A stretch of 64,000 nt of DNA from Litorivicinus sp. (GTDB taxonomy: Bacteria > Pseudomonadota > Gammaproteobacteria > Pseudomonadales > Litorivicinaceae), in NCBI GenBank assembly GCA_018401755.1, contig JAGYKJ010000006.1:248001-312000 (forward strand), given 5' to 3'. This document shows positions 33,559 to 63,949 of the stretch, in pieces; position 1 is the first letter of the stretch, and every line of letters begins with the position of its first letter. The notes below the pieces were generated by a model that worked only from the letters and a program-made list of their open reading frames with translations, did not search any database and was not told the DNA's origin. The position numbers were made by a program, and so were the translations under genes.

Positions 33559-34019
33559 CAGTGGCCTCCTTGAAAGTGCATTTGACGCCATGCCTCATAC
33601 AGCACAATCGCGACTGCATTTGAGAGATTGAGACTTCGGGTATTCGCAGTCATTGGAATTCGAATGAGCGCATCCACGTTGGGGGATGTGCGCAGTATGT
33701 CCGGCAAGCCGCGTGTCTCGGGGCCAAACAGCAAGATGTCGTCTGGTTCAAATTGAAAGTCAGCATGATGTTGCGCCCCCTTTGTCGACACACCAATGCA
33801 GCGACCGGAGACTGATTCACGAAATGCACCCCAATTTGAATGTACTTTGAGCCGTGCGAGGTCGTGATAGTCAAGCCCTGAGCGTTTCACTGCTTTTTCG
33901 TCCAGTGAAAACCCCAGCGGTTCGATGAGATGCAGGTCCGATCCTGTATTGGCACACAGCCGAATAATATTTCCGGTATTGGGGGGGATTTCAGGTTCAA
34001 ACAGACACACGGCGAGCAT
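33558..34019 (-). CDS. trmL: tRNA (cytidine/uridine-34 2'-O)-methyltransferase
   Basis: SPOUT-fold methyltransferase modifying the wobble base of tRNA-Leu isoacceptors. The three SPOUT motifs are present: [30 protein letters not shown] and [18 protein letters not shown]. The ATG at 34019 gives 153 residues, the usual size (E. coli 157). It is co-transcribed with uup, since its stop overlaps the uup start. Confidence 0.95.
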
Positions 34020-34151
34020 GGCGGCACGATACGCGGCTTCCAGTGGAAAAGAAAGAGAACTCAATTCGTGCCATTGGTGACTGAATCCTCTGCCAAAAAA
34101 AGGGTTTTGATTCCACGTTTGAGTGGCATATTAGAGTCAGGAGGATTACCT

Positions 34152-35057
34152 ATGCATCAGCACCCGATCAGCGATCACATTATCCCCCGGACATCGGATC
34201 TTGGTCAGATGCAGGTTAAGCGTGCGCTCCCCTCTGTGGGCAAACGTGCGGTTGGACCCTTCGTATTCTGGGACCAGATGGGTCCGGGCGAGCTGCTGAC
34301 CGATCAGGGTATTGATGTGCGTCCGCATCCGCATATTGGATTAGCCACCTTGACCTACTTATTCGAGGGTCAAATAGAACATCGAGACAGTTTGGGTATC
34401 CGGCAATTGATTACGCCAGGAGCCATCAATTTGATGACCGCGGGTTCGGGGATCGTACATTCCGAGCGATCCGATGCGGCATCCAGAGCGAGTGTGAGCC
34501 CATTATTTGGCTTACAGAGTTGGTTGGCGCTCCCGCAATCCCATGAAGAGTGCTCCCCTGACTTTTTGCATGTACCTGAGGCAGCACTGCCGCTCTTTGA
34601 TGAGAACGGTATGCAAGGCCGAGTCGTGTTAGGCAGATTCCAAGGTTTGAGTGCACCCACGCCGTTTCCAATGGATGCCTTATATCTTGATGTCACGCTC
34701 GATGCGGGTGCCGTGATGGAGTTTCCGCCCGCGTGGGAGGAGAGGGCCCTCTACGCATTGCGCGGTGAGATTGAGGTTGACGGAGTGACTTACCCCAAAG
34801 AGACGCTCTTGGTGTTACACCCCCAACAGCCGGTGCGGCTTAAGGCAGTAGCGGGTCCGGTCCATGTCATCTTATTCGGTGGCGAGCCACTGGATGGGCC
34901 ACGCTATCTTTGGTGGAATTTTGTGGCCAGTGACCGAGAGCGCCTTGAGGTGGCAAAGATAGATTGGCTCGAGGGTCGCTTTCCGATCGTACCTGGCGAG
35001 ACCGAATTCATCCCATTACCCGACGCCTCAGTGGATCGTCAGACAACTGACATTTGA
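34152..35057 (+). CDS. Pirin family protein
   Basis: A 301-residue bicupin. The N-terminal cupin shows GPFVFWDQMGPGE, the metal-ligand histidines in RPHPHIGLATLTYLFEG, and GSGIVHSER. The ATG at 34152 follows an AGGAGG ribosome-binding site. Pirins bind iron and some have quercetinase activity; the role here is unknown. It is followed 33 bp later by a PHP phosphoesterase on the same strand. Confidence 0.92.
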   Translation: MHQHPISDHIIPRTSDLGQMQVKRALPSVGKRAVGPFVFWDQMGPGELLTDQGIDVRPHPHIGLATLTYLFEGQIEHRDSLGIRQLITPGAINLMTAGSGIVHSERSDAASRASVSPLFGLQSWLALPQSHEECSPDFLHVPEAALPLFDENGMQGRVVLGRFQGLSAPTPFPMDALYLDVTLDAGAVMEFPPAWEERALYALRGEIEVDGVTYPKETLLVLHPQQPVRLKAVAGPVHVILFGGEPLDGPRYLWWNFVASDRERLEVAKIDWLEGRFPIVPGETEFIPLPDASVDRQTTDI

Positions 35058-35090
35058 CCGCGTTACACTGGCTGCGTAGAGAGGGAGTTT

Positions 35091-35861
35091 ATGCAGCAAT
35101 TTACGGACACACATGCCCACACCGTGGCCAGTACCCACGCCTTCAGCACGGTCGATGAATATTTTCGAGAGGCCAGCGCGAAAGGATTACATCTGTTTAG
35201 CATTACAGATCATGGGCCGGAGATGCCTGACTCTCCGCATCCCTGGCATTTCGGTAACATGCGAGTCCTGCCACGTGTCAAAGATGGTGTCGCCTTGTTA
35301 CGGGGAATTGAGGCGAATATTGTGCCTGATGAGCGGATTGTGGACGCCAATGAGACACTGATGTCGTTTATGGATTTTGCCATTGCAAGCTTTCATGAGC
35401 CGGTGTTTCCACCCAGTGATCGCCTGACGCACACAAAAGCAATGATTGCGGCGATTGAGTCTGGACGGATTCAAATCATCGGCCATCCTGGTAACCCCAA
35501 CTATCCGATCGAGATCGATGCAGTGGTCCAAGCTTGCGTGGCCCATGGGGTCGCGATTGAAATCAATAACAGCTCCTTCCATGTTTCACGTCATGGGAGT
35601 GAGCCGCACTGCATGGCAATTCTTGAGGCGGCAGCACGTGAGGGTGCGCAGGTCGCTGCTGCCAGTGATGCGCATGTTGCCTATGCGGTCGGAGATGTCT
35701 CGACGTCGCTGCAGAAAATAATGGCCGCGAGGATTGAGCCTGAAGCTGTTGTGACCTTGACGGCGAGAAGTCTGTTGGATTTTTTGGCCCGCCACGGTCG
35801 GCCTGTGGCGACGGAGTTGGCGGCTTGGTTGCATGATCTCGAGAAAAAAATGGGGGCCTAA
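35091..35861 (+). CDS. PHP-domain metal-dependent phosphatase, YcdX-like
   Basis: A 256-residue phosphoesterase with the PHP metal motifs: FTDTHAHT at the N-terminus, TDHGPEM, IEANI, GHPGNPNYP and SDAHVAYAVG. E. coli YcdX is a trinuclear-zinc alkaline phosphatase-like member of this family. AGAGAGGG lies upstream of the ATG. The stop codon sits inside a GC-rich hairpin (35851-35868). Confidence 0.92.
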   Translation: MQQFTDTHAHTVASTHAFSTVDEYFREASAKGLHLFSITDHGPEMPDSPHPWHFGNMRVLPRVKDGVALLRGIEANIVPDERIVDANETLMSFMDFAIASFHEPVFPPSDRLTHTKAMIAAIESGRIQIIGHPGNPNYPIEIDAVVQACVAHGVAIEINNSSFHVSRHGSEPHCMAILEAAAREGAQVAAASDAHVAYAVGDVSTSLQKIMAARIEPEAVVTLTARSLLDFLARHGRPVATELAAWLHDLEKKMGA

Positions 35862-56765: not shown

Positions 56766-56880
56766 TGGGGGCCAGAGAGGGAATCGCGGACACGAGGATT
56801 TTCAATGCCGTGTTGAAAAATATCCCACATAAATACAGTGGCTTGTAAACATAAAAAGTCAATGTGCTACAGAGTATGCT
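56766..56880 (-). repeat. tRNA-Phe 3'-fragment repeat, copy A (internally deleted)
   Basis: Core 56766-56805 plus tail to 56880. Compared with other copies it lacks about 7 bp in the T-arm (AACCCCC missing) and the CCA end is changed, so it is the most decayed copy. Its tail matches copy D (ACATAAATACA, GCTTGTAAA) and ends TGTGCTACAGAGTATGCT. Confidence 0.8.
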
Positions 56881-57002
56881 AAGCGTTCACACTAGGATTG
56901 GGTGTTTGCATCGCTCTCGAAACGGTCCGTGAAAATAGACAAGACCCCTTTCAGTGCCATCCATGAAGGCATCATCAATATGCGGCAGACGATGCAATCG
57001 CA

Positions 57003-57032
57003 TTGACCCTGACAAGGCAATCGCATTACCAT
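57003..57032 (+). promoter_or_regulatory. Putative prlF-yhaV promoter with direct-repeat operator
   Basis: TTGACC (57003-57008) and TACCAT (57027-57032) are 18 bp apart, giving a sigma-70-like promoter. The 10-mer CAATCGCATT occurs at 56995-57004 and 57018-57027, 23 bp apart, overlapping both boxes. This is a fitting operator for autorepression by the antitoxin. Confidence 0.45.
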
Positions 57033-57065
57033 CCTGGCATTAGACATCCAGCATAGGAGCACGTC

Positions 57066-57395
57066 ATGTCCGCGACCCTTGAAGTCGAATCCACGCTGAC
57101 CGATCGTTACCAGACCACCGTGCCAGAAACGGTTCGCCGTGCTTTGCGGCTGCGTAAGCGCGACAAGATCCATTACGTCATCCGCCCCAGCGGTGAAGTG
57201 GTACTGACACGCGCCAGTGATGCAGAGGATGACGACCCGGTGTTGGGGCAGTTCCTAGGCTTCCTAGCGCAAGACATCGCCACCCACCCTGATAGCCTGC
57301 AATCCGTGAGCAGCAGCTTGGTCCAACGCGTTCAGTCGCTGGTCAGTGAGGTGAGTGTGGACCTTGATGCGCCGTTGTCGGAAACCGATGAGTGA
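57066..57395 (+). CDS. prlF: Type II antitoxin PrlF (AbrB-like)
   Basis: A 109-residue antitoxin with an N-terminal swapped-hairpin AbrB domain (STLTDRYQTTVPETVRRALR, then LRKRDKIHYVI, about residues 9-40) and an acidic C-terminal helix expected to wrap the toxin. An AGGAG lies before the ATG. The stop overlaps the yhaV start as GTGA, the standard arrangement. PrlF-YhaV represses its own promoter, and a direct repeat lies across the predicted promoter upstream. Confidence 0.9.
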   Translation: MSATLEVESTLTDRYQTTVPETVRRALRLRKRDKIHYVIRPSGEVVLTRASDAEDDDPVLGQFLGFLAQDIATHPDSLQSVSSSLVQRVQSLVSEVSVDLDAPLSETDE

Positions 57396-57898
57396 AGGTC
57401 GCCAAGCCTGACCCTCTGGTCATACATGGCTGGACGGTGTTTGCGCATCCGTTGTTCATGAAGCAAGTCGAAGCCCTGGTGGAGCAAGTCGAGGTACTTA
57501 AGGCAAAGGAGCCGACTGGCTACATCAAGAAAAATGCGACCAAGCGACTGGCCGCTATTGCCCGTCTGGCTTTTGATGTCATCCCTCAGGACCCTGTCCG
57601 CGCTGAATACCGACAGGGGGGCACGCTGGGTGACGACCGGAAACACTGGTTTCGTGCAAAATTTTTTCAGCAGTACCGTTTGTTCTTTCGGTACCACGCT
57701 GCGGCTCAAATGATCGTCTACGTCTGGGTTAATGATGAGGACACAAAGCGAGCCTACGAAAGCAGCGATGATGCGTATCGCGTCTTTCGCAAAATGCTCG
57801 AGAGCGGCCATCCGCCTGACGATTGGAGTCAGCTGCTAAGCCAAGCTGAACTTGAGGGGCATCGGCTTAACCAGGTATTCAGCACTCTCGGCGAATAA
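57392..57898 (+). CDS. yhaV: Type II toxin YhaV (ribonuclease)
   Basis: A 168-residue RelE-superfamily ribosome-dependent ribonuclease partner of PrlF. YhaV-typical stretches are INGW-like IHGWTVFAHPLF, the charged centre YRQGGTLGDDRKHWFRAKFF, and QYRLFFRYHAAAQMIVYVWVN. The GTG start overlaps the prlF stop. It appears intact, so the module is potentially active. Confidence 0.9.
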   Translation: MKVAKPDPLVIHGWTVFAHPLFMKQVEALVEQVEVLKAKEPTGYIKKNATKRLAAIARLAFDVIPQDPVRAEYRQGGTLGDDRKHWFRAKFFQQYRLFFRYHAAAQMIVYVWVNDEDTKRAYESSDDAYRVFRKMLESGHPPDDWSQLLSQAELEGHRLNQVFSTLGE

Positions 57899-57904
57899 GG
57901 TCAA

Positions 57905-58076
57905 TTGCGCAAGGTAGTGGACGCTCGTAGCAGTCTAGAAGACCTTGCGTTGCAGTCTAATTAATCGAGGGAAACCCTAGATCACACCCTCCCTGCTAAA
58001 AGAAATCCGACATTAAAGACGCTTAACGCTTTATTCAAAGCGATGTCTGGAGATGCATGTAATGCCGCAAGGCTGA
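57905..58076 (+). pseudogene. Decayed 3' half of a higA antitoxin gene
   Basis: DNA-level match to the last about 170 bp of the intact higA at 59828-60001 (same LRKVV.ARSSL..ALQSN opening, same GAGATGCATGTAA near the end, same GGCTGA stop and the same few bases before the next repeat). A deletion brings an in-frame stop near 57960 and others follow. It abuts repeat copy B exactly as intact higA abuts copy D, so a higA-plus-repeat block was duplicated. Confidence 0.8.
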
Positions 58077-58083
58077 GAAGGGA

Positions 58084-58203
58084 TGGTGGCCAGAGAGGGA
58101 ATCGAACCCCCGACACGAGGATTTTCAATAGCGTTTTGCAAAATTTCCTGAACATTTTCAACTGGTTGAAAAAATAAAAAGTCGGTGTGCTACAGAGTGC
58201 GCT
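58084..58203 (-). repeat. tRNA-Phe 3'-fragment repeat, copy B
   Basis: The core at 58084-58128 read on the minus strand is the anticodon loop TTGAAAA, anticodon arm, variable loop, T-arm GGGGG-TTCGATT-CCCTC and acceptor strand ending CCA: positions 32-76 of tRNA-Phe(GAA). The 5' half of the tRNA does not follow. The AT-rich tail resembles copy C (GCAAAATTTC) and ends GTGTGCTACAGAGTGCGCT. Confidence 0.88.
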
Positions 58204-58269
58204 TCAGCGCCAAGGCCAGAAGCTGGCATACCTCAGGCGGGTTGATTATGGTACATTCGTATTGCTCTG

Positions 58270-58554
58270 CTAGTCTTCATGCCCGTGACGAACACGAATG
58301 ATAAAGACCGTCCCATTTTCTTCGACTCTGTAAATGACCAGATGTGATCCAATAGGGTGGATGCGAACTGGAGGCAAGATCTCAAAACGCTCATGAGCCG
58401 CCAAAGGGTTCTCCGCCAAGAAACGGAAACACTGCCCCAACTGTTCGTGGTAGCGTTCAGCCTGACTTAGGCCGAATTGCTCAATACCAGTTTGGAAGAT
58501 GCCGATGATATCCTCTTCCGCCTTTCGGCTGAGAACGTAACTCATTGGGGTCAC
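58270..58554 (-). CDS. parE: Type II toxin ParE
   Basis: A 94-residue (91 from the ATG at 58545) RelE/ParE-fold toxin that by family acts on DNA gyrase. ParE hallmarks are LSRKAEEDIIGIFQTGIEQF, ERYHEQL and the C-terminal HLVIYRVEENGTVFIIRVRH. The GTG at 58554 overlaps the parD stop as GTGA, matching the parD-parE order. It appears intact. Confidence 0.92.
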   Translation of the reverse strand: MTPMSYVLSRKAEEDIIGIFQTGIEQFGLSQAERYHEQLGQCFRFLAENPLAAHERFEILPPVRIHPIGSHLVIYRVEENGTVFIIRVRHGHED

Positions 58555-58793
58555 TTGGTTGGGGACTGCTTCTGAGCCGCTACGCGCAGCATATCCATCG
58601 TTCTGGTGCCTGCACCACTTTCAATGCCCTCGGTGACGAGCGCTTGCATGTTTGCAATCTTCACGGCCTTATCCTGATCACGGCGGATTAGATCGCGCAT
58701 ATAATCACTTGAGTTACTGTAACGACCAGACTGGGCTTGTTGTTCAACCCACTGCTTCATTGCATTTGGCAACGAGATATTCATTGTAGCCAT
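58551..58793 (-). CDS. parD: Type II antitoxin ParD (ribbon-helix-helix)
   Basis: An 80-residue antitoxin: N-terminal ribbon-helix-helix (MATMNISLPNAMKQWVEQQA) followed by GRYSNSSDYMRDLIRRD and a toxin-binding helix. The ATG at 58793 is chosen because an in-frame upstream extension has no domain support and GAAGGA lies just before. It is upstream of and coupled to parE. An imperfect palindrome lies just upstream. Confidence 0.92.
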   Translation of the reverse strand: MATMNISLPNAMKQWVEQQAQSGRYSNSSDYMRDLIRRDQDKAVKIANMQALVTEGIESGAGTRTMDMLRVAAQKQSPTK

Positions 58794-58804
58794 AACGCAT
58801 CCTT

Positions 58805-58843
58805 CCGTATTGGAAACATGACAAACTTTGCCAATAAATACGG
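58805..58843. promoter_or_regulatory. Inverted repeat upstream of parD (candidate autorepressor site)
   Basis: CCGTATT (58805-58811) and AATACGG (58837-58843) are exact reverse complements with an inner TTGG/CCAA pair. The position immediately before parD is where ParD-ParE complexes normally bind. Confidence 0.4.
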
Positions 58844-59156
58844 GTGTTTTCAAGCTGAACGCTTTTTCAGTCGGATTGATCAAGGTGCTTTGCCCGTGGC
58901 GGCGAATTGGTATTTGTGAGAATCAACGATCACCGGATCGCCACCTTGTTAGTGAGCGGTGTGATTCCATAGCAATTTCGAGCAACTGAACTCACGATCA
59001 TATACGGGAACCCAGCGACTCGAAGTCCATGGAAACCCTCTGTCCCGTTTTAGGAGGTAATGGGTAGTGCTCGCGTTACCCGAGTGCTTTACCCTGTATT
59101 AACGGACACTCCTGTGTGACCGATGTGAGACATGAACATTAAAGGCTATTTGAATG

Positions 59157-59274
59157 TGGTGGCCAGAGAGGGAATCGAACCCCCGACACGAGGATTTTCA
59201 ACGGCGTGTTGCAAAATTTCTGATTACTTTTCAGTTGGTAAAGTTCCCAAAATTCGAGTGTGCTACAGAATGTG
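59157..59274 (-). repeat. tRNA-Phe 3'-fragment repeat, copy C
   Basis: The 45-bp core (59157-59201) is identical to copies B and D. The tail is closest to copy B at first, then diverges (TTTCAGTTGGTAAAGTTCC), and ends GTGTGCTACAGAATGTG. It follows a 360-bp stretch (58794-59156) without a gene apart from the parD operator. Confidence 0.88.
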
Positions 59275-59348
59275 TTACGCGCTCATTTTTGAACTAGCCT
59301 TGTTTTTCCCAGTTTGATGAGCGCGATGCTCGACGGACTTAGATGCTG

Positions 59349-59376
59349 TTGACAGTGTTAGCTTAAAAGCTACACT
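59349..59376 (+). promoter_or_regulatory. Consensus promoter for higBA with embedded palindrome, apparently leaderless
   Basis: TTGACA (59349-59354), a 16-bp spacer and TACACT (59371-59376). TAGCTT-AA-AAGCTA (59359-59372) is a perfect 6-bp palindrome lying in the spacer and the -10 box. Six bases after the -10 is the higB ATG (59383), so transcription should start at or next to the initiation codon. Confidence 0.6.
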
Positions 59377-59382
59377 CTGCGC

Positions 59383-59706
59383 ATGTGGATTATTCGTCAT
59401 TACCTCAATGCTCAAGGTGCTGATCTCTTCCAAGAATGGTTAGATGGGCTATCAGATCGAAGGGCGCGCGCACGTATCGCCGCTAGGTTGCTGAGAATCG
59501 AATTAGGTAATTTGGGTGAGTGTAAGTCTGTGGGTGATGGCGTGCATGAACTGCGAATCGATTATGGACCTGGCTATCGGGTTTATTTCGCAGTGATCAA
59601 TAAGCAGGCTGTACTACTGTGTTGTGGAGGTACTAAAAAGTCCCAACGATCTGCCATTCAGCTTGCTAGGCGCCTATGGCAAGAATGGCAACAGAGGAAA
59701 TCATGA
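59383..59706 (+). CDS. higB: RelE/HigB-family toxin
   Basis: A 107-residue phage-Gp49/HigB-like toxin: FQEWLDGLSDRRARARIAAR, LGNLGECKSVGDGVHELRID, GPGYRVYFAV and LLCCGGTKKSQRSAI. The family cleaves mRNA on the ribosome. The ATG lies six bases after a good -10 box, and there is no ribosome-binding site, so a leaderless message is likely. The antitoxin gene follows after one base, in toxin-first order typical of higBA. Confidence 0.9.
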   Translation: MWIIRHYLNAQGADLFQEWLDGLSDRRARARIAARLLRIELGNLGECKSVGDGVHELRIDYGPGYRVYFAVINKQAVLLCCGGTKKSQRSAIQLARRLWQEWQQRKS

Positions 59707-59707
59707 A

Positions 59708-60001
59708 ATGCGAGAAATGACCGAACATGATCAATGGCTGAAAGAGCAATTGCAGGATGCTGATTTTGCGGCTGAATATCTTAACGCTGCGCAAGAAGAT
59801 GACGATCCTCAAGTGTATCTACTTGCACTTCGTAAGGTGGTCGAAGCTCGAAGTAGTCTGAAGGATGTCGCGTTGCAATCTAATTTATCGAGGGAAACTT
59901 TGTATCGGACGCTCTCTGCAAAGGGAAATCCAACACTAAAGACGTTAAACGCTGTATTTAAAGCGACTGGTTTGGAGATGCATGTAACGCCGCGAGGCTG
60001 A
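59708..60001 (+). CDS. higA: HigA-family antitoxin (addiction module antidote)
   Basis: A 97-residue XRE-type antitoxin with helix-turn-helix SLKDVALQSNLSRETLYRTL, then SAKGNPTLKTLNAVFKATGL, the usual HigA antidote ending. The ATG at 59708 has AGAGGAAA 7 nt upstream; a second ATG at 59717 is possible. It ends 7 bp before repeat copy D. A decayed copy of its 3' half is present at 57905-58076. Confidence 0.9.
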   Translation: MREMTEHDQWLKEQLQDADFAAEYLNAAQEDDDPQVYLLALRKVVEARSSLKDVALQSNLSRETLYRTLSAKGNPTLKTLNAVFKATGLEMHVTPRG

Positions 60002-60008
60002 GAGAGGG

Positions 60009-60126
60009 TGGTGGCCAGAGAGGGAATCGAACCCCCGACACGAGGATTTTCAATGGCGTGTTACAAAATACCTACATAAATACAATAGCTTGTAAAAATA
60101 AAATGTCGGTGTGCTACAGAGTGTGC
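60009..60126 (-). repeat. tRNA-Phe 3'-fragment repeat, copy D
   Basis: The 45-bp core (60009-60053) is identical to copies B and C. The tail closely matches copy A (TACATAAATACAATAGCTTGT) and ends GTGTGCTACAGAGTGTGC. It begins 7 bp after the higA stop. Confidence 0.9.
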
Positions 60127-60773
60127 CCAGACATTTCGCCCAAACGGTCAAGTTACCTCGGTTTCAAACCATTTCTGGAAGGGATATGAACTGCTCGAGT
60201 TTGCAAAACGCTCAAATAATATTCGAGTCATTCGGAAGAGCAATGATCACCGGACTTCTAAATTACAAAGATAATTTGGTGTTCAATCATAATCCCCAAG
60301 TGAAAATCAGAATTTATCCAAGATACAAAGCCGCTTTATCCAAACTCCATCGCATTGGCACGCCACCGATCACACTGACTTGTGAAATACTACGCTGCCA
60401 GTATCGATCGGCGAATATCCCGTAGCTCTGGGCCTTAACTTCTGCGCAGTTGGTGGCAGAGGTCAGCAACCAGTTCTGCGTTGTCAGCTGCAATTCGGCC
60501 ATCATATAGTCAGGCTGCCTAAGTCGCCGAGGTTGCATACATCTCTGACGTCAAGACGGTCCCCCCTTGCGTCGCCTCGGCGACCCTACGTTCAGCGGGT
60601 CTGGACGATTCTGTCGAATTGTACGTTTCGCGGAACTTAGCACGCAGTAAAATATTGCTTACCGTATGTTTTCAAACACCGGTCGCCCTTTTTATTTCCT
60701 GAAATTGCTTTTTGCCCGCCAATAGGATTAGATTTCAGGTAGCGCAATAGGCCGCTTTCTAGAGGATAGAGCA
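60127..60773. other. Long non-coding stretch
   Basis: About 650 bp between repeat D and the amidase gene. Short open frames exist on both strands (for example 60314-60538 on the minus strand) but have no good start, ribosome-binding site or domain. The sequence may hold the promoter of the amidase gene and decayed element DNA. No RNA gene recognised. Confidence 0.4.
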
Positions 60774-62030
60774 ATGAAAAAAATAATAATTGCAGCATTG
60801 CTAGGAGCCCTTTCAGCTCCAGCATTTGCGGACACGACAGATCAAAAGTGGATGACGATTGTTGAGTTAAAGAAGCAGGGTATGCACTGCGCTGACGATC
60901 CGAATTGTTTCAATCGATATCACCCAGAAATATCCGAAAAGGCCACTGCGAATGTGGACGATATGATCGTCTACCATACTCGAGATGCGCTCGATACAGA
61001 GTTTACCCTTGAGTCGATCCCGGCTGATTTGGCAACGGTCGATTTGGGACTTGTGCATCCCATGACAGGACCAGTCCATATTAATGGCGCCAAACGCGGC
61101 GATGCGATTGAAGTGGAAGTTGTCGATATCGTGCCTGATCAATATGGGTACACGGTTATCGCGCCTGGGTTTGGGTTCTTGCGGGACATCTTTACTGAAC
61201 CCTACATCGTAAACTGGCGTTTGACGCGAACGGGAGCAGTTTCGCCACAGATGCCTGGAATTACAGTTCCCTACGAAGCGTTTCCGGGCTCGATCGGTGT
61301 CATGCCAGGCATGCCAGAAGTCCAGAAAATCAAGGCCCGAGAAGCGGATCTTGCTGGCGCTGGTGGCGCAGTATTGGGCCCATCTGGCGCTGGCGCATTG
61401 CCCGCCGATTTGTGTGGTGAGGGTGCAAGAGCGGAAAAAGACTGTTTGAGGACCATCCCACCACGTGAGAACGGCGGCAATATGGATGTGCAGCAAATGC
61501 AGATCGGGACCCGCATTTTGTTCCCGTGCTTTATCGATGGCTGTGGCGTATTTATCGGGGATGTACACTATGCCCAAGGCGATGGTGAAGTCGGCGGCAC
61601 CGCAATTGAAATGGGTTCAGTGACCACGATTCGTGTTCGGAAGATTCACCCTGGCAAGGGCGCCTCACTGGATATGCCGGCGACCCTTGGAAATGATCAG
61701 ATCATTGATATGGAGCCAACGCGTTATTATCAGACGGTAGGTATCCCGTTGAAGGGTAAGGGGGAAATTCCACCGACGCACCAGTATCTCAGTGGCGCGG
61801 CAATTGCCAATCTTGAGAATCTCAACGAGGATCTCACGCTGGCGGCTCGCCATGCACTACTGCAGATGATTGACTATTTGGTTGAGGAACAGGGCCTCAC
61901 CAAAGAGCAGGCGTATGTGTTGAGCTCAGTGGCTGTCGATTTACGTGTCGGCCAGGTTGTCGATGTTCCAAACTATATCGTGACGGCAGTATTGAATTTG
62001 GATGTATTCGACAAGTATCGTCATTATTAG
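60774..62030 (+). CDS. Exported acetamidase/formamidase family protein
   Basis: A 418-residue member of the FmdA/AmdA amidase family with a signal peptide (MKKIIIAALLGALSAPAFA), which is unusual because classical members are cytoplasmic. Family segments include PVHINGAKRGDAIEVEVVDI, GVMPGMPEV, NGGNMDVQQMQIGTRILFPC and GDVHYAQGDGEVGGTAIE. AGAGGA precedes the ATG. The substrate is a short amide by family. It is the largest gene in the array and is followed by a hairpin. Confidence 0.88.
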   Translation: MKKIIIAALLGALSAPAFADTTDQKWMTIVELKKQGMHCADDPNCFNRYHPEISEKATANVDDMIVYHTRDALDTEFTLESIPADLATVDLGLVHPMTGPVHINGAKRGDAIEVEVVDIVPDQYGYTVIAPGFGFLRDIFTEPYIVNWRLTRTGAVSPQMPGITVPYEAFPGSIGVMPGMPEVQKIKAREADLAGAGGAVLGPSGAGALPADLCGEGARAEKDCLRTIPPRENGGNMDVQQMQIGTRILFPCFIDGCGVFIGDVHYAQGDGEVGGTAIEMGSVTTIRVRKIHPGKGASLDMPATLGNDQIIDMEPTRYYQTVGIPLKGKGEIPPTHQYLSGAAIANLENLNEDLTLAARHALLQMIDYLVEEQGLTKEQAYVLSSVAVDLRVGQVVDVPNYIVTAVLNLDVFDKYRHY

Positions 62031-63457: not shown

Positions 63458-63586
63458 GTTTTTGAAGTTGCAGGACAGATTTGGCTGTTCACTTTGTATT
63501 CCAAGGGCGAGGTATCTGATTTGACTCAATCAGATAAAAAATTGCTCAAGCAACGGCTCAAAAACGAAATAGGGAGTAGGCAATGA
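63458..63586 (+). pseudogene. 3' remnant of a RelE/HigB-type toxin gene
   Basis: The frame encodes VAGQIWLFTLYSKGEVSDLT followed by QSDKKLLKQRLKNEIGSRQ and a stop, the characteristic C-terminus of RelE-type toxins paired with NadS-like antitoxins. The 5' two-thirds of the gene is missing. Its stop overlaps the antitoxin ATG (ATGA), the normal order for such pairs. Confidence 0.75.
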
Positions 63587-63900
63587 AAAAGCGCGAATTG
63601 TTTGCAGAGTTGCAGGAAGGGCTCGATGCTCTGAGTGACTCGCGAACAGGGAAACAAACACTCCGTACTCATATTGTTGAGGATTATGTTGCGCCTATGG
63701 TGACAGCCGAGGAGCTTGTGAGCCTGCGTAATCGCTTGAACCTTTCTCGTCCGGTATTCGCGAATTATTTACGAACCAACCCGCGAACTCTTGAAAGTTG
63801 GGAGCAGGGCCGTACAAAGCCAAACGCGCAAGCAGCACTGCTAATCAGGCTTGTAGAAAGCTACCCCGACACAGTCGCACGACTCGCGTCTGTTTCATAA
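63583..63900 (+). CDS. NadS/HigA-type antitoxin (helix-turn-helix)
   Basis: A 105-residue antitoxin with an acidic helical N-terminus (ELFAELQEGLDALSDSR) and a C-terminal XRE HTH: LRNRLNLSRPVFANYLRTNP, then RTLESWEQGRTKPNAQAALL. GGGAG precedes the ATG. Only a remnant of its cognate toxin precedes it, so it now stands alone. It ends 11 bp before repeat copy E. Confidence 0.88.
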   Translation: MKKRELFAELQEGLDALSDSRTGKQTLRTHIVEDYVAPMVTAEELVSLRNRLNLSRPVFANYLRTNPRTLESWEQGRTKPNAQAALLIRLVESYPDTVARLASVS

Positions 63901-63911
63901 ATAAAAGGAGA

Positions 63912-63949
63912 TGGTGGCCAGAGAGGGAATCGAACCCCCGACACGAGGA
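63912..63949 (-). repeat. tRNA-Phe 3'-fragment repeat, copy E (short)
   Basis: Thirty-eight bp identical to the CCA-proximal part of the other copies, ending within the anticodon stem. The following bases (CTTAGATCAAATC) differ from all other copies and are not the 5' half of tRNA-Phe. It is either a separate integration boundary or a truncated copy. The window ends 51 bp further on. Confidence 0.8.

Follow-up and report, generated by a model that had tools for sequence, protein, structure and literature searches.

Tandem units bounded by repeats of a target RNA gene have been described as cis-mobilizable elements (CIMEs), as products of tandem accretion, and as the ssrA islands of Dehalococcoides. 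In the parts of the ssrA reports cited here, the 15 integrase-less units contain 38 rdhA genes besides others, and some units without integration genes are thought to be moved by functions encoded elsewhere (PMC3146451, PMC5704250). In tyrosine-integrase islands of the Islander type, crossover in the anticodon loop, one of three subsites, goes with a displaced 3′ tRNA fragment; the definition, as worded in the cited sections, counts an island only where an integrase gene is present, and a tandem only where every member carries one (PMC4383910). Here we analyse a 64-kb stretch of a Litorivicinus sp. genome (the window; C5:248001–312000 of the 2.19-Mb genome G000, whose genus, genomes G000–G021, is called Litoricola below), which carries four fragments of tRNA-Phe, each adjoined by an AT-rich tail. 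We propose that the tail is the element-borne arm of a tyrosine-recombinase attachment site that uses the anticodon loop of tRNA-Phe, and that the units it marks are minimal mobile cassettes, a reading to which we assign a probability of about 0.78, because excision and binding are unobserved. Since Islander requires an integrase for each member, arrays like this one fall outside its definition.

The general kind, tandem integrase-less units at an RNA gene, is already known; the small size, the toxin-antitoxin cargo, the conserved arm, and the spread in a second family set the present array apart, and no description of arrays of this kind was recognized in the open-access literature searched. 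As in CIMEs, attL and attR are both kept and there are no genes for integration or transfer, transfer being judged from the list of open reading frames (ORFs) only. In contrast to the ssrA islands, as far as the cited parts describe them, 28 of 52 tabulated intervals between neighbouring tails on the same contig are under 2.5 kb (median 2.28 kb, range 0.64–32.7 kb; unlisted weak tails would shorten some), and bacteria of different families share a recognizable arm. A tRNA gene is likewise the target for variable cargo in additive flexible genomic islands and tycheposons, but the portions of those accounts cited here do not describe an attachment arm (PMC4119200, PMC10872708). Tycheposons are stated there to span 4–200 kb, and those described in the cited portion carry a tyrosine recombinase (PMC10872708). 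Here the single units among the four copies measure 0.85–1.3 kb, the whole array spans 20 kb, and no PF00589 integrase gene lies in it at E ≤ 1e-5 (serine recombinases were not searched for). Integron arrays and superintegrons, in the accounts drawn on, share small promiscuous cassettes in which toxin-antitoxin pairs are common, whereas the present array has no attC-like fold, no PF00589 gene, and a tRNA gene as its anchor. The dif (pdif) modules of Acinetobacter are also small and are moved by XerC and XerD, which they do not encode; as those modules are portrayed in the sources used, Xer sites flank them on plasmids and chromosomes, unlike the tRNA-Phe anticodon-loop site and arm found here.

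The four fragments, copies A to D, begin at 56766, 58084, 59157 and 60009, and each is a tRNA-Phe 3′ half in reverse orientation, adjoined by an AT-rich tail that ends in TGTGCTACAGA. Specifically, copy A (56766..56805) is the reverse complement of the 3′ half as far as the anticodon loop and lacks 5 bp, and its tail (56806..56884) carries the box as TGTGCTACAGAGTATGCT at 56863. Copy B (58084..58128; tail 58129..58205, box at 58186) lies within 47 bp that match the native gene region exactly, while copy C (59157..59201; tail 59202..59278, box at 59259) and copy D (60009..60053; tail 60054..60130, box at 60110) have exact matches of 45 bp and 46 bp, respectively, to the native gene. On the plus strand of the window, TGTGCTACAGA occurs exactly four times, at 56863, 58186, 59259 and 60110, only at the four tRNA fragments; GGATTTTCAA starts at 56796, 58119, 59192 and 60044, and TGTGCTACAGA starts 66–67 bp later each time. 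A preliminary description of this stretch had reported four tails beyond the tRNA core that end in almost the same box, and all four are found where it placed them. A profile search of the whole genome (E ≤ 0.001) detects seven tail copies, all inside one array and none outside it; a dispersed repeat of the box away from tRNA fragments, which the preliminary description had named as the contrary finding, is not seen. At C6:310142, away from the array, there is a weak partial box match of 29 bp with an E-value of 0.12.

The array is anchored at an intact gene. ARAGORN places tRNA-Phe(GAA) at C5:325036–325111, 13 kb beyond the window, and finds no tRNA gene within the window itself. Between copy D and this gene the array continues with a tail-less, core-only copy at window 63912..63949 (C5:311913), in which the tRNA-Phe 3′ half diverges at the anticodon loop, with a tail that lacks its core at C5:322274, and with two further copies comprising core and tail at C5:323128 and C5:323929. 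All copies share one direction, towards the tRNA-Phe gene, and the unit plan is the tRNA-Phe 3′ half to the anticodon loop, followed by a tail of ~80 bp, followed by cargo. The cargo thus lies between a tRNA gene and a displaced fragment that point the same way, the arrangement of an attachment site in a tRNA gene.

Comparison of the tails reveals graded similarity. In ungapped alignment over 72 bases, tails A and B match at 50 positions, A and C at 42, and B and C at 45, against a maximum of 36 in 5000 shuffles; the pairs A–D, B–D and C–D match at 26, 28 and 28 of 72 because D has a 1-bp deletion. When gaps are allowed, A and D are 84% identical in the AT-rich part, so that their pairing in the preliminary description stands, whereas B and C, also paired there, are 55% identical. 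Tail B has greater similarity to D (73%) and to the G002 copy (82%), and tail C is closer to copies E and T of its own genome (80% each). The tails therefore sort into three or four graded types, not into the two families from which two interleaved lineages had been deduced. The shuffles, the profile searches and the exact counts together lead us to reject chance or artefact as the origin of the tails.

Each repeat comprises ~45 bp of core and an 80-bp tail, the AT-rich part of which is 45–86% alike between copies. Agreement between the fragment and the native tRNA extends to the anticodon loop, TTTTCAA, and is lost beyond it, so the crossover likely lies in the loop. Among 14 tails of three families (f1, f44 and f37), two loop positions and columns C39, A40, T46 and A57 are invariant, as are all seven positions of a TGTGCTA motif and the two positions that follow it; a second TGTGC-like unit lies 12 bp further on. 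Motif statistics were compiled for 68 of 72 profile tails, the four weakest being omitted, and 64 of these are near-full. TGTGCTA, with one mismatch allowed, is present in 62 of the 64 near-full tails and present at least twice in 39, and 38 of 44 spacings are 12 bp, a regularity expected of arm-type repeats, which makes these putative arm sites. In f44, the block in the middle of the tail is a good fit to the IHF consensus, WATCAANNNNTTR: the near-full tails contain it perfectly in 32 cases and with one mismatch in 23, compared with 0.34% and 7% of shuffles. The core sequence CGACACGAGG, which lies outside and upstream of the profile used (R2), is found with two mismatches or fewer at 44 of the 68 tails, compared with 0.7% in shuffles. 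The 37-nt tRNA half (≤8 mismatches) is kept in just 13 of the 68, so in family f44 a stretch of ~26 bp, spanning T loop to anticodon loop, seems to suffice. In having a crossover, an IHF-like site (weak in Litoricola) and TGTGCTA repeats at 12-bp spacing, the tail looks like one arm of an attP of the phage type.

Tails of this kind recur in other genomes. The crossover-side pattern, with two mismatches allowed, is present in 5 of the 25 genomes of the window's family, the window's own included; in exact form it matches one record of the GTDB contig set (from which records near the window genome may be excluded) and no viral contig. Searching 390 genomes of the order with a first profile, R1, identifies six that carry tails: three of Litoricola, together with G379, G394 and G389. 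Those of G379 and G394 (genus g64, family f44) lie at tRNA-Phe(GAA), and the tail of G389 is on a fragment read as tRNA-Leu(CAA). With the second profile, R2, 38 of the 119 f44 genomes match at E ≤ 1e-4 (36 at 1e-5), and a sample of 368 other genomes of the class yields no match at E ≤ 1e-5. G451 has 22 copies, G484 has 16, and G427 and G464 have 10 each. In G379, G394, G397, G419, G427 and G480 the tails face a tRNA-Phe(GAA) gene called by ARAGORN, in the same relative orientation as in the window genome. In particular, the single contig of G427 has eight tails at 4.7–38 kb from tRNA-Phe, and none of that genome's ten PF00589 matches (E ≤ 1e-5) lies in this array. The evidence supports the preliminary description in assigning the tail to a mobile unit and in likening it to a recombinase arm, and the tail recurs at tRNA-Phe genes elsewhere.

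Three further observations concern individual loci. A second tail pair in G427 (C1:4513227–4528190, L189), ~1.15 Mb from tRNA-Phe, carries tRNA-Phe-like fragments, and ARAGORN calls no tRNA gene near it in 20 kb. In G397 (L225 9446–9668) a tail lies just 63 bp from the tRNA-Phe gene, which leaves no room for a gene. In G006 two full-length tRNA-Phe-like matches (L080 2673–2747 and 6538–6612) lie 3.8 kb apart, the second being 89% identical to the query.

Comparison of related arrays reveals shared cassettes with edges at the core or the tail. In G013 and G002, which represent two species, the unit between tRNA-Phe and a tailed fragment carries transporter genes and an acetamidase-like gene (named from ORFs); in G013 it is 9 kb long, with the tail at its 3′ end. 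From the first base after the tRNA, the two units are 99.5% identical over 1384 bp; two further blocks follow, one of 334 bp at 100% and one of 6878 bp at 99.35%, the latter reaching the 3′ end of the fragment's tRNA. The comparison is interrupted by a contig gap in G002 and, between the last two blocks, by a difference in length. Outside the unit, the alignable flank pieces on both sides are 65–71% identical. Similarly, G464 and G484 have in common a block of 4546 bp (98.7% identity) that ends in the core, beyond which the next 200 bp show 26% ungapped agreement, and G394 and G464 have in common a block of 8757 bp (96.5%) that begins at the tail's first base in both and ends near the next tRNA half, with 30% ungapped agreement in the 200 bp before it. 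The tail of G013 resembles A and D (77–82%) and that of G002 resembles B (82%); one cargo unit is therefore joined to different tails, and tail type is no marker of lineage, contrary to the use made of it in the preliminary description.

No PF00589 match lies in the window array itself, and a small tyrosine recombinase lies near tails in three other genomes (G478, G389 and G484). The window genome has three PF00589 matches at E ≤ 1e-5, of which the sole one that is not Xer-like adjoins tRNA-Ser; the label Xer-like is inferred from length and from presence in nearly all genomes searched, with no family model applied. In G478 (L261), 7 bp separate the 3′ end of a gene for a 192-aa tyrosine recombinase from a tail, which is joined to a tRNA-Phe 3′ half; relatives lie 0.8 kb from a tail in G389 and, in G484, within the array, about midway between two tails and 5.2 kb from each. 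The 3′ end of the gene faces the tail in G478 and G389, and in G484 it faces the tail at L193:8477. These proteins are about 192–199 aa long; the PF00589 match spans nearly the whole protein in the two tested, and none of three tested reaches an NCBIfam cut-off. At E ≤ 1e-25, small recombinase genes are present in 15 of 119 f44 genomes, 8 of which have tails, compared with 38 of the 119 overall, a co-occurrence that is suggestive only. Of 17 matches, two (G478 and G484) have a listed tail no more than 6 kb away on their own contig, and among 12 loci fetched, one (L261) has a tail in its flanks. In the window's family, 21 of 25 genomes yield only longer, Xer-like frames with 27–32% identity, and four yield no match; among viral contigs, relatives of the small recombinase amount to two weak loci. 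We therefore regard the 192-aa recombinase as a candidate driver for f44.

The analysis also covered other integrases and mobile-element records. G001 and G010 have an intact DUF6538-type integrase near tRNA-Phe, among TGTCTAC repeats (L078 2836–3969; L090 1813–2985), and several other genomes of the genus have partial matches to it there. We set this integrase aside as the cognate enzyme, on account of those repeats and because G010, by our own reading, seems to use the tRNA 3′ end. Related integrases elsewhere adjoin Leu, Arg, Thr and Ser tRNAs, several of them with the TGTCTAC repeat. The bare arm pattern matches 33 viral stretches, about as many as chance would give by our rough estimate, of which just two, L120 and L138, were read and used; these are also the only ones of the 33 with an integrase-like ORF close to the pattern (three query proteins). 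In L138 (4976–5204), an integrase-like gene accompanies a tRNA 3′ half, which we take to be tRNA-Pro, with TAGCACAC repeats spaced 12 bp apart on both its sides. L138 looks like a two-armed attP of similar style, and suggests that repeats of the tail type can flank an integrase core. Three exact patterns found no tail-carrying viral contig; among the phage (two queries) and plasmid (one query) records listed, the matches are essentially to the tRNA core, and none covers 80% of the query. A parent element carrying the tail was thus not found in the viral, phage, plasmid and GTDB contig searches.

On the attachment-arm proposal, one end of a cassette would be the tail, composed of the crossover TTTTCAA, a recombinase-side segment, an IHF-like bend site, and TGTGCTA-like arm sites; one or more cargo genes would form the middle; and a copy of the tRNA-Phe 3′ half would form the other end, restoring the tRNA upon insertion. 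Since the units have no integrase, the arm would serve a recombinase acting in trans, which would insert circular cassettes at the tRNA gene or at an older copy, so that cassettes would stack in one orientation. Toxin-antitoxin cargo would then keep a cassette in place through addiction. Observed directly are the layout and conservation of the units, their single orientation relative to tRNA-Phe, the exchange of units between genomes with edges at core or tail, and the lack of a PF00589 gene in the window array; the circular intermediate, the binding of the recombinase, the use of IHF, and the addiction are steps that we infer. More tentatively, and with the odds in our judgement against it, the arrays might represent an integron-like system in a tRNA gene, in which one-armed cassettes of one or a few genes are inserted and shuffled in trans, driven by a small tyrosine recombinase of ~192–199 aa that consists almost entirely of the catalytic domain, in at least two bacterial families.

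Several observations weigh against the tail being such an arm. No circular form, excision or within-species empty site was seen, and no cognate recombinase was found in the window's genome or family. Phage attP sites are usually two-armed, and a second arm across the core was not seen in the window copies (by eye; no systematic search was made). The motifs are also uneven: 25 of the 64 near-full tails have fewer than two TGTGCTA, 24 of the 68 have no good upstream core (3–7 mismatches), and the IHF-like site is weak in Litoricola, where ten tails comprise one perfect site, one with one mismatch, and eight with two or three. Moreover, profile R2 includes f44 tails, so conservation among its matches is partly built in. 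As to shared cassettes, the other edge of the G464/G484 block lies at no core or tail in G484 and ~160 bp from a core in G464, and identity of the G394/G464 block is 86.9% in the first 500 columns and 94–99% after. In the two near-identical cassettes examined, the differences are concentrated in the core-proximal half of the tail, from the loop to the arm box: the 6878-bp block of G013 and G002 has 45 mismatches, of which 15 lie within 47 bp of tail (L015 10447–10493 versus L014), and 9 of 59 mismatches between G464 and G484 (L203 versus L193) lie in the first 82 bp, which comprise core and proximal tail, with none in the arm box. Because these halves differ in otherwise near-identical cassettes, they seem to have moved between arrays, and homologous recombination may be responsible; the clustering is not accounted for by site-specific recombination alone.

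The exchange of tail halves also bears on an account in which homologous recombination between tRNA fragments or tails spreads the cassettes and the tail is merely common DNA. A 479-bp piece that occurs twice in the array at 95.4% identity fits this account as well, yet the repeats are short, conservation falls on positions typical of a recombinase site, among which a spacing of 12 bp is preferred, and the edges of shared cassettes coincide with the tail or with the 3′ end of the tRNA, beyond which the sequence is unrelated or far more diverged, so that we consider it unlikely. Decay deserves more weight, although we think it doubtful: the units would be remnants of islands or satellites, mobilizable in cis, that have lost the integrase and kept the ends and an addictive gene pair. 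The presence of the DUF6538 integrase near tRNA-Phe, intact in two genomes of the genus and partial in others, speaks for this account, and the authors of the Dehalococcoides study, in the part cited, explain in this way 15 ssrA islands that have no integration modules (PMC3146451). However, tailed units of 0.64–1.3 kb recur, some genes end a few bases from the core, and different cargo is joined to similar tails, as for a purpose-built small cassette; furthermore, that integrase sits among different repeats, and in G010 we read a repeat of the tRNA 3′ end only, which does not reach the anticodon loop.

Two other explanations are rejected. A promoter or regulatory leader common to toxin-antitoxin operons would account for a tail that is AT-rich and lies upstream of several plus-strand pairs, but ParDE and an NYN-domain gene are on the opposite strand with the tail at their 3′ ends, the G013 tail is at the 3′ end of a 9-kb unit, and f44 tails accompany varied enzymes; with cargo on both strands, we reject a shared promoter as very improbable. 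An integron array with attC sites has a precedent in the integrons of Alteromonas, where, in the part of that report cited, small cassettes including toxin-antitoxin pairs occur in one array (PMC4119200). Here a tRNA-Phe half is part of the site, the array has no PF00589 gene, and the tails have no conserved secondary structure (four predicted pairs, none with a compensatory change); the conserved imperfect hairpin of attC is thus missing, and we reject this explanation as scarcely credible.

If the tail is an attachment arm, gene gain at a tRNA hotspot could work with ~1-kb units that have no recombinase of their own, which suggests a route for the spread of stand-alone toxin-antitoxin pairs in a streamlined marine bacterium. 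Island finders that demand one integrase per unit miss such arrays, while the sequence profile of the tail detects them. With the site defined, the array anchored and a candidate recombinase at hand, it becomes possible to test how islands that lack an integrase are moved.

The cargo of the window array includes several toxin-antitoxin pairs in units without integrase, a feature that the preliminary description had overlooked. The unit after copy A encodes a PrlF-family antitoxin (57066..57395, plus strand) and a YhaV-family toxin (57392..57898, plus), the unit after copy B encodes a ParE-family toxin (58270..58554, minus) and a ParD-family antitoxin (58551..58883, minus), and the unit after copy C encodes a RelE/ParE-family toxin of HI1419 type (59383..59706, plus) and an addiction-module antidote of HI1420 type (59624..60001, plus). 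Between the end of some cargo genes and the core there are just a few bases. Copy D is followed by an acetamidase/formamidase-family gene (60774..62030, plus), two genes without a Pfam match, and, before the core-only copy, a helix-turn-helix antitoxin-like gene (63583..63900, plus), which is MqsA/NadS-like but below curated cut-offs. This last gene sits in the repeated 479-bp block, the second copy of which is at C5:322689–323167 (L001 11474–11952 versus L002 4689–5167); one of the two block copies diverges at the anticodon loop and is tail-less. Beyond the core-only copy lie ~10 kb of pyrroloquinoline quinone (PQQ)-type and transport genes (named from ORF lists, with no family search), and then a second copy of the antitoxin-like gene beside an apparently broken frame without a Pfam match. 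Further array cargo comprises a Gp49-family toxin with a helix-turn-helix protein, and the NYN-domain gene, on the minus strand, adjoins the tRNA gene.

At 33564–35846, the window contains relatives of the TrmL-like and PHP-like genes that flank the tRNA-Phe region in other members of the genus; the variable region of this genome may therefore extend from ~36 kb of the window to the tRNA-Phe gene.

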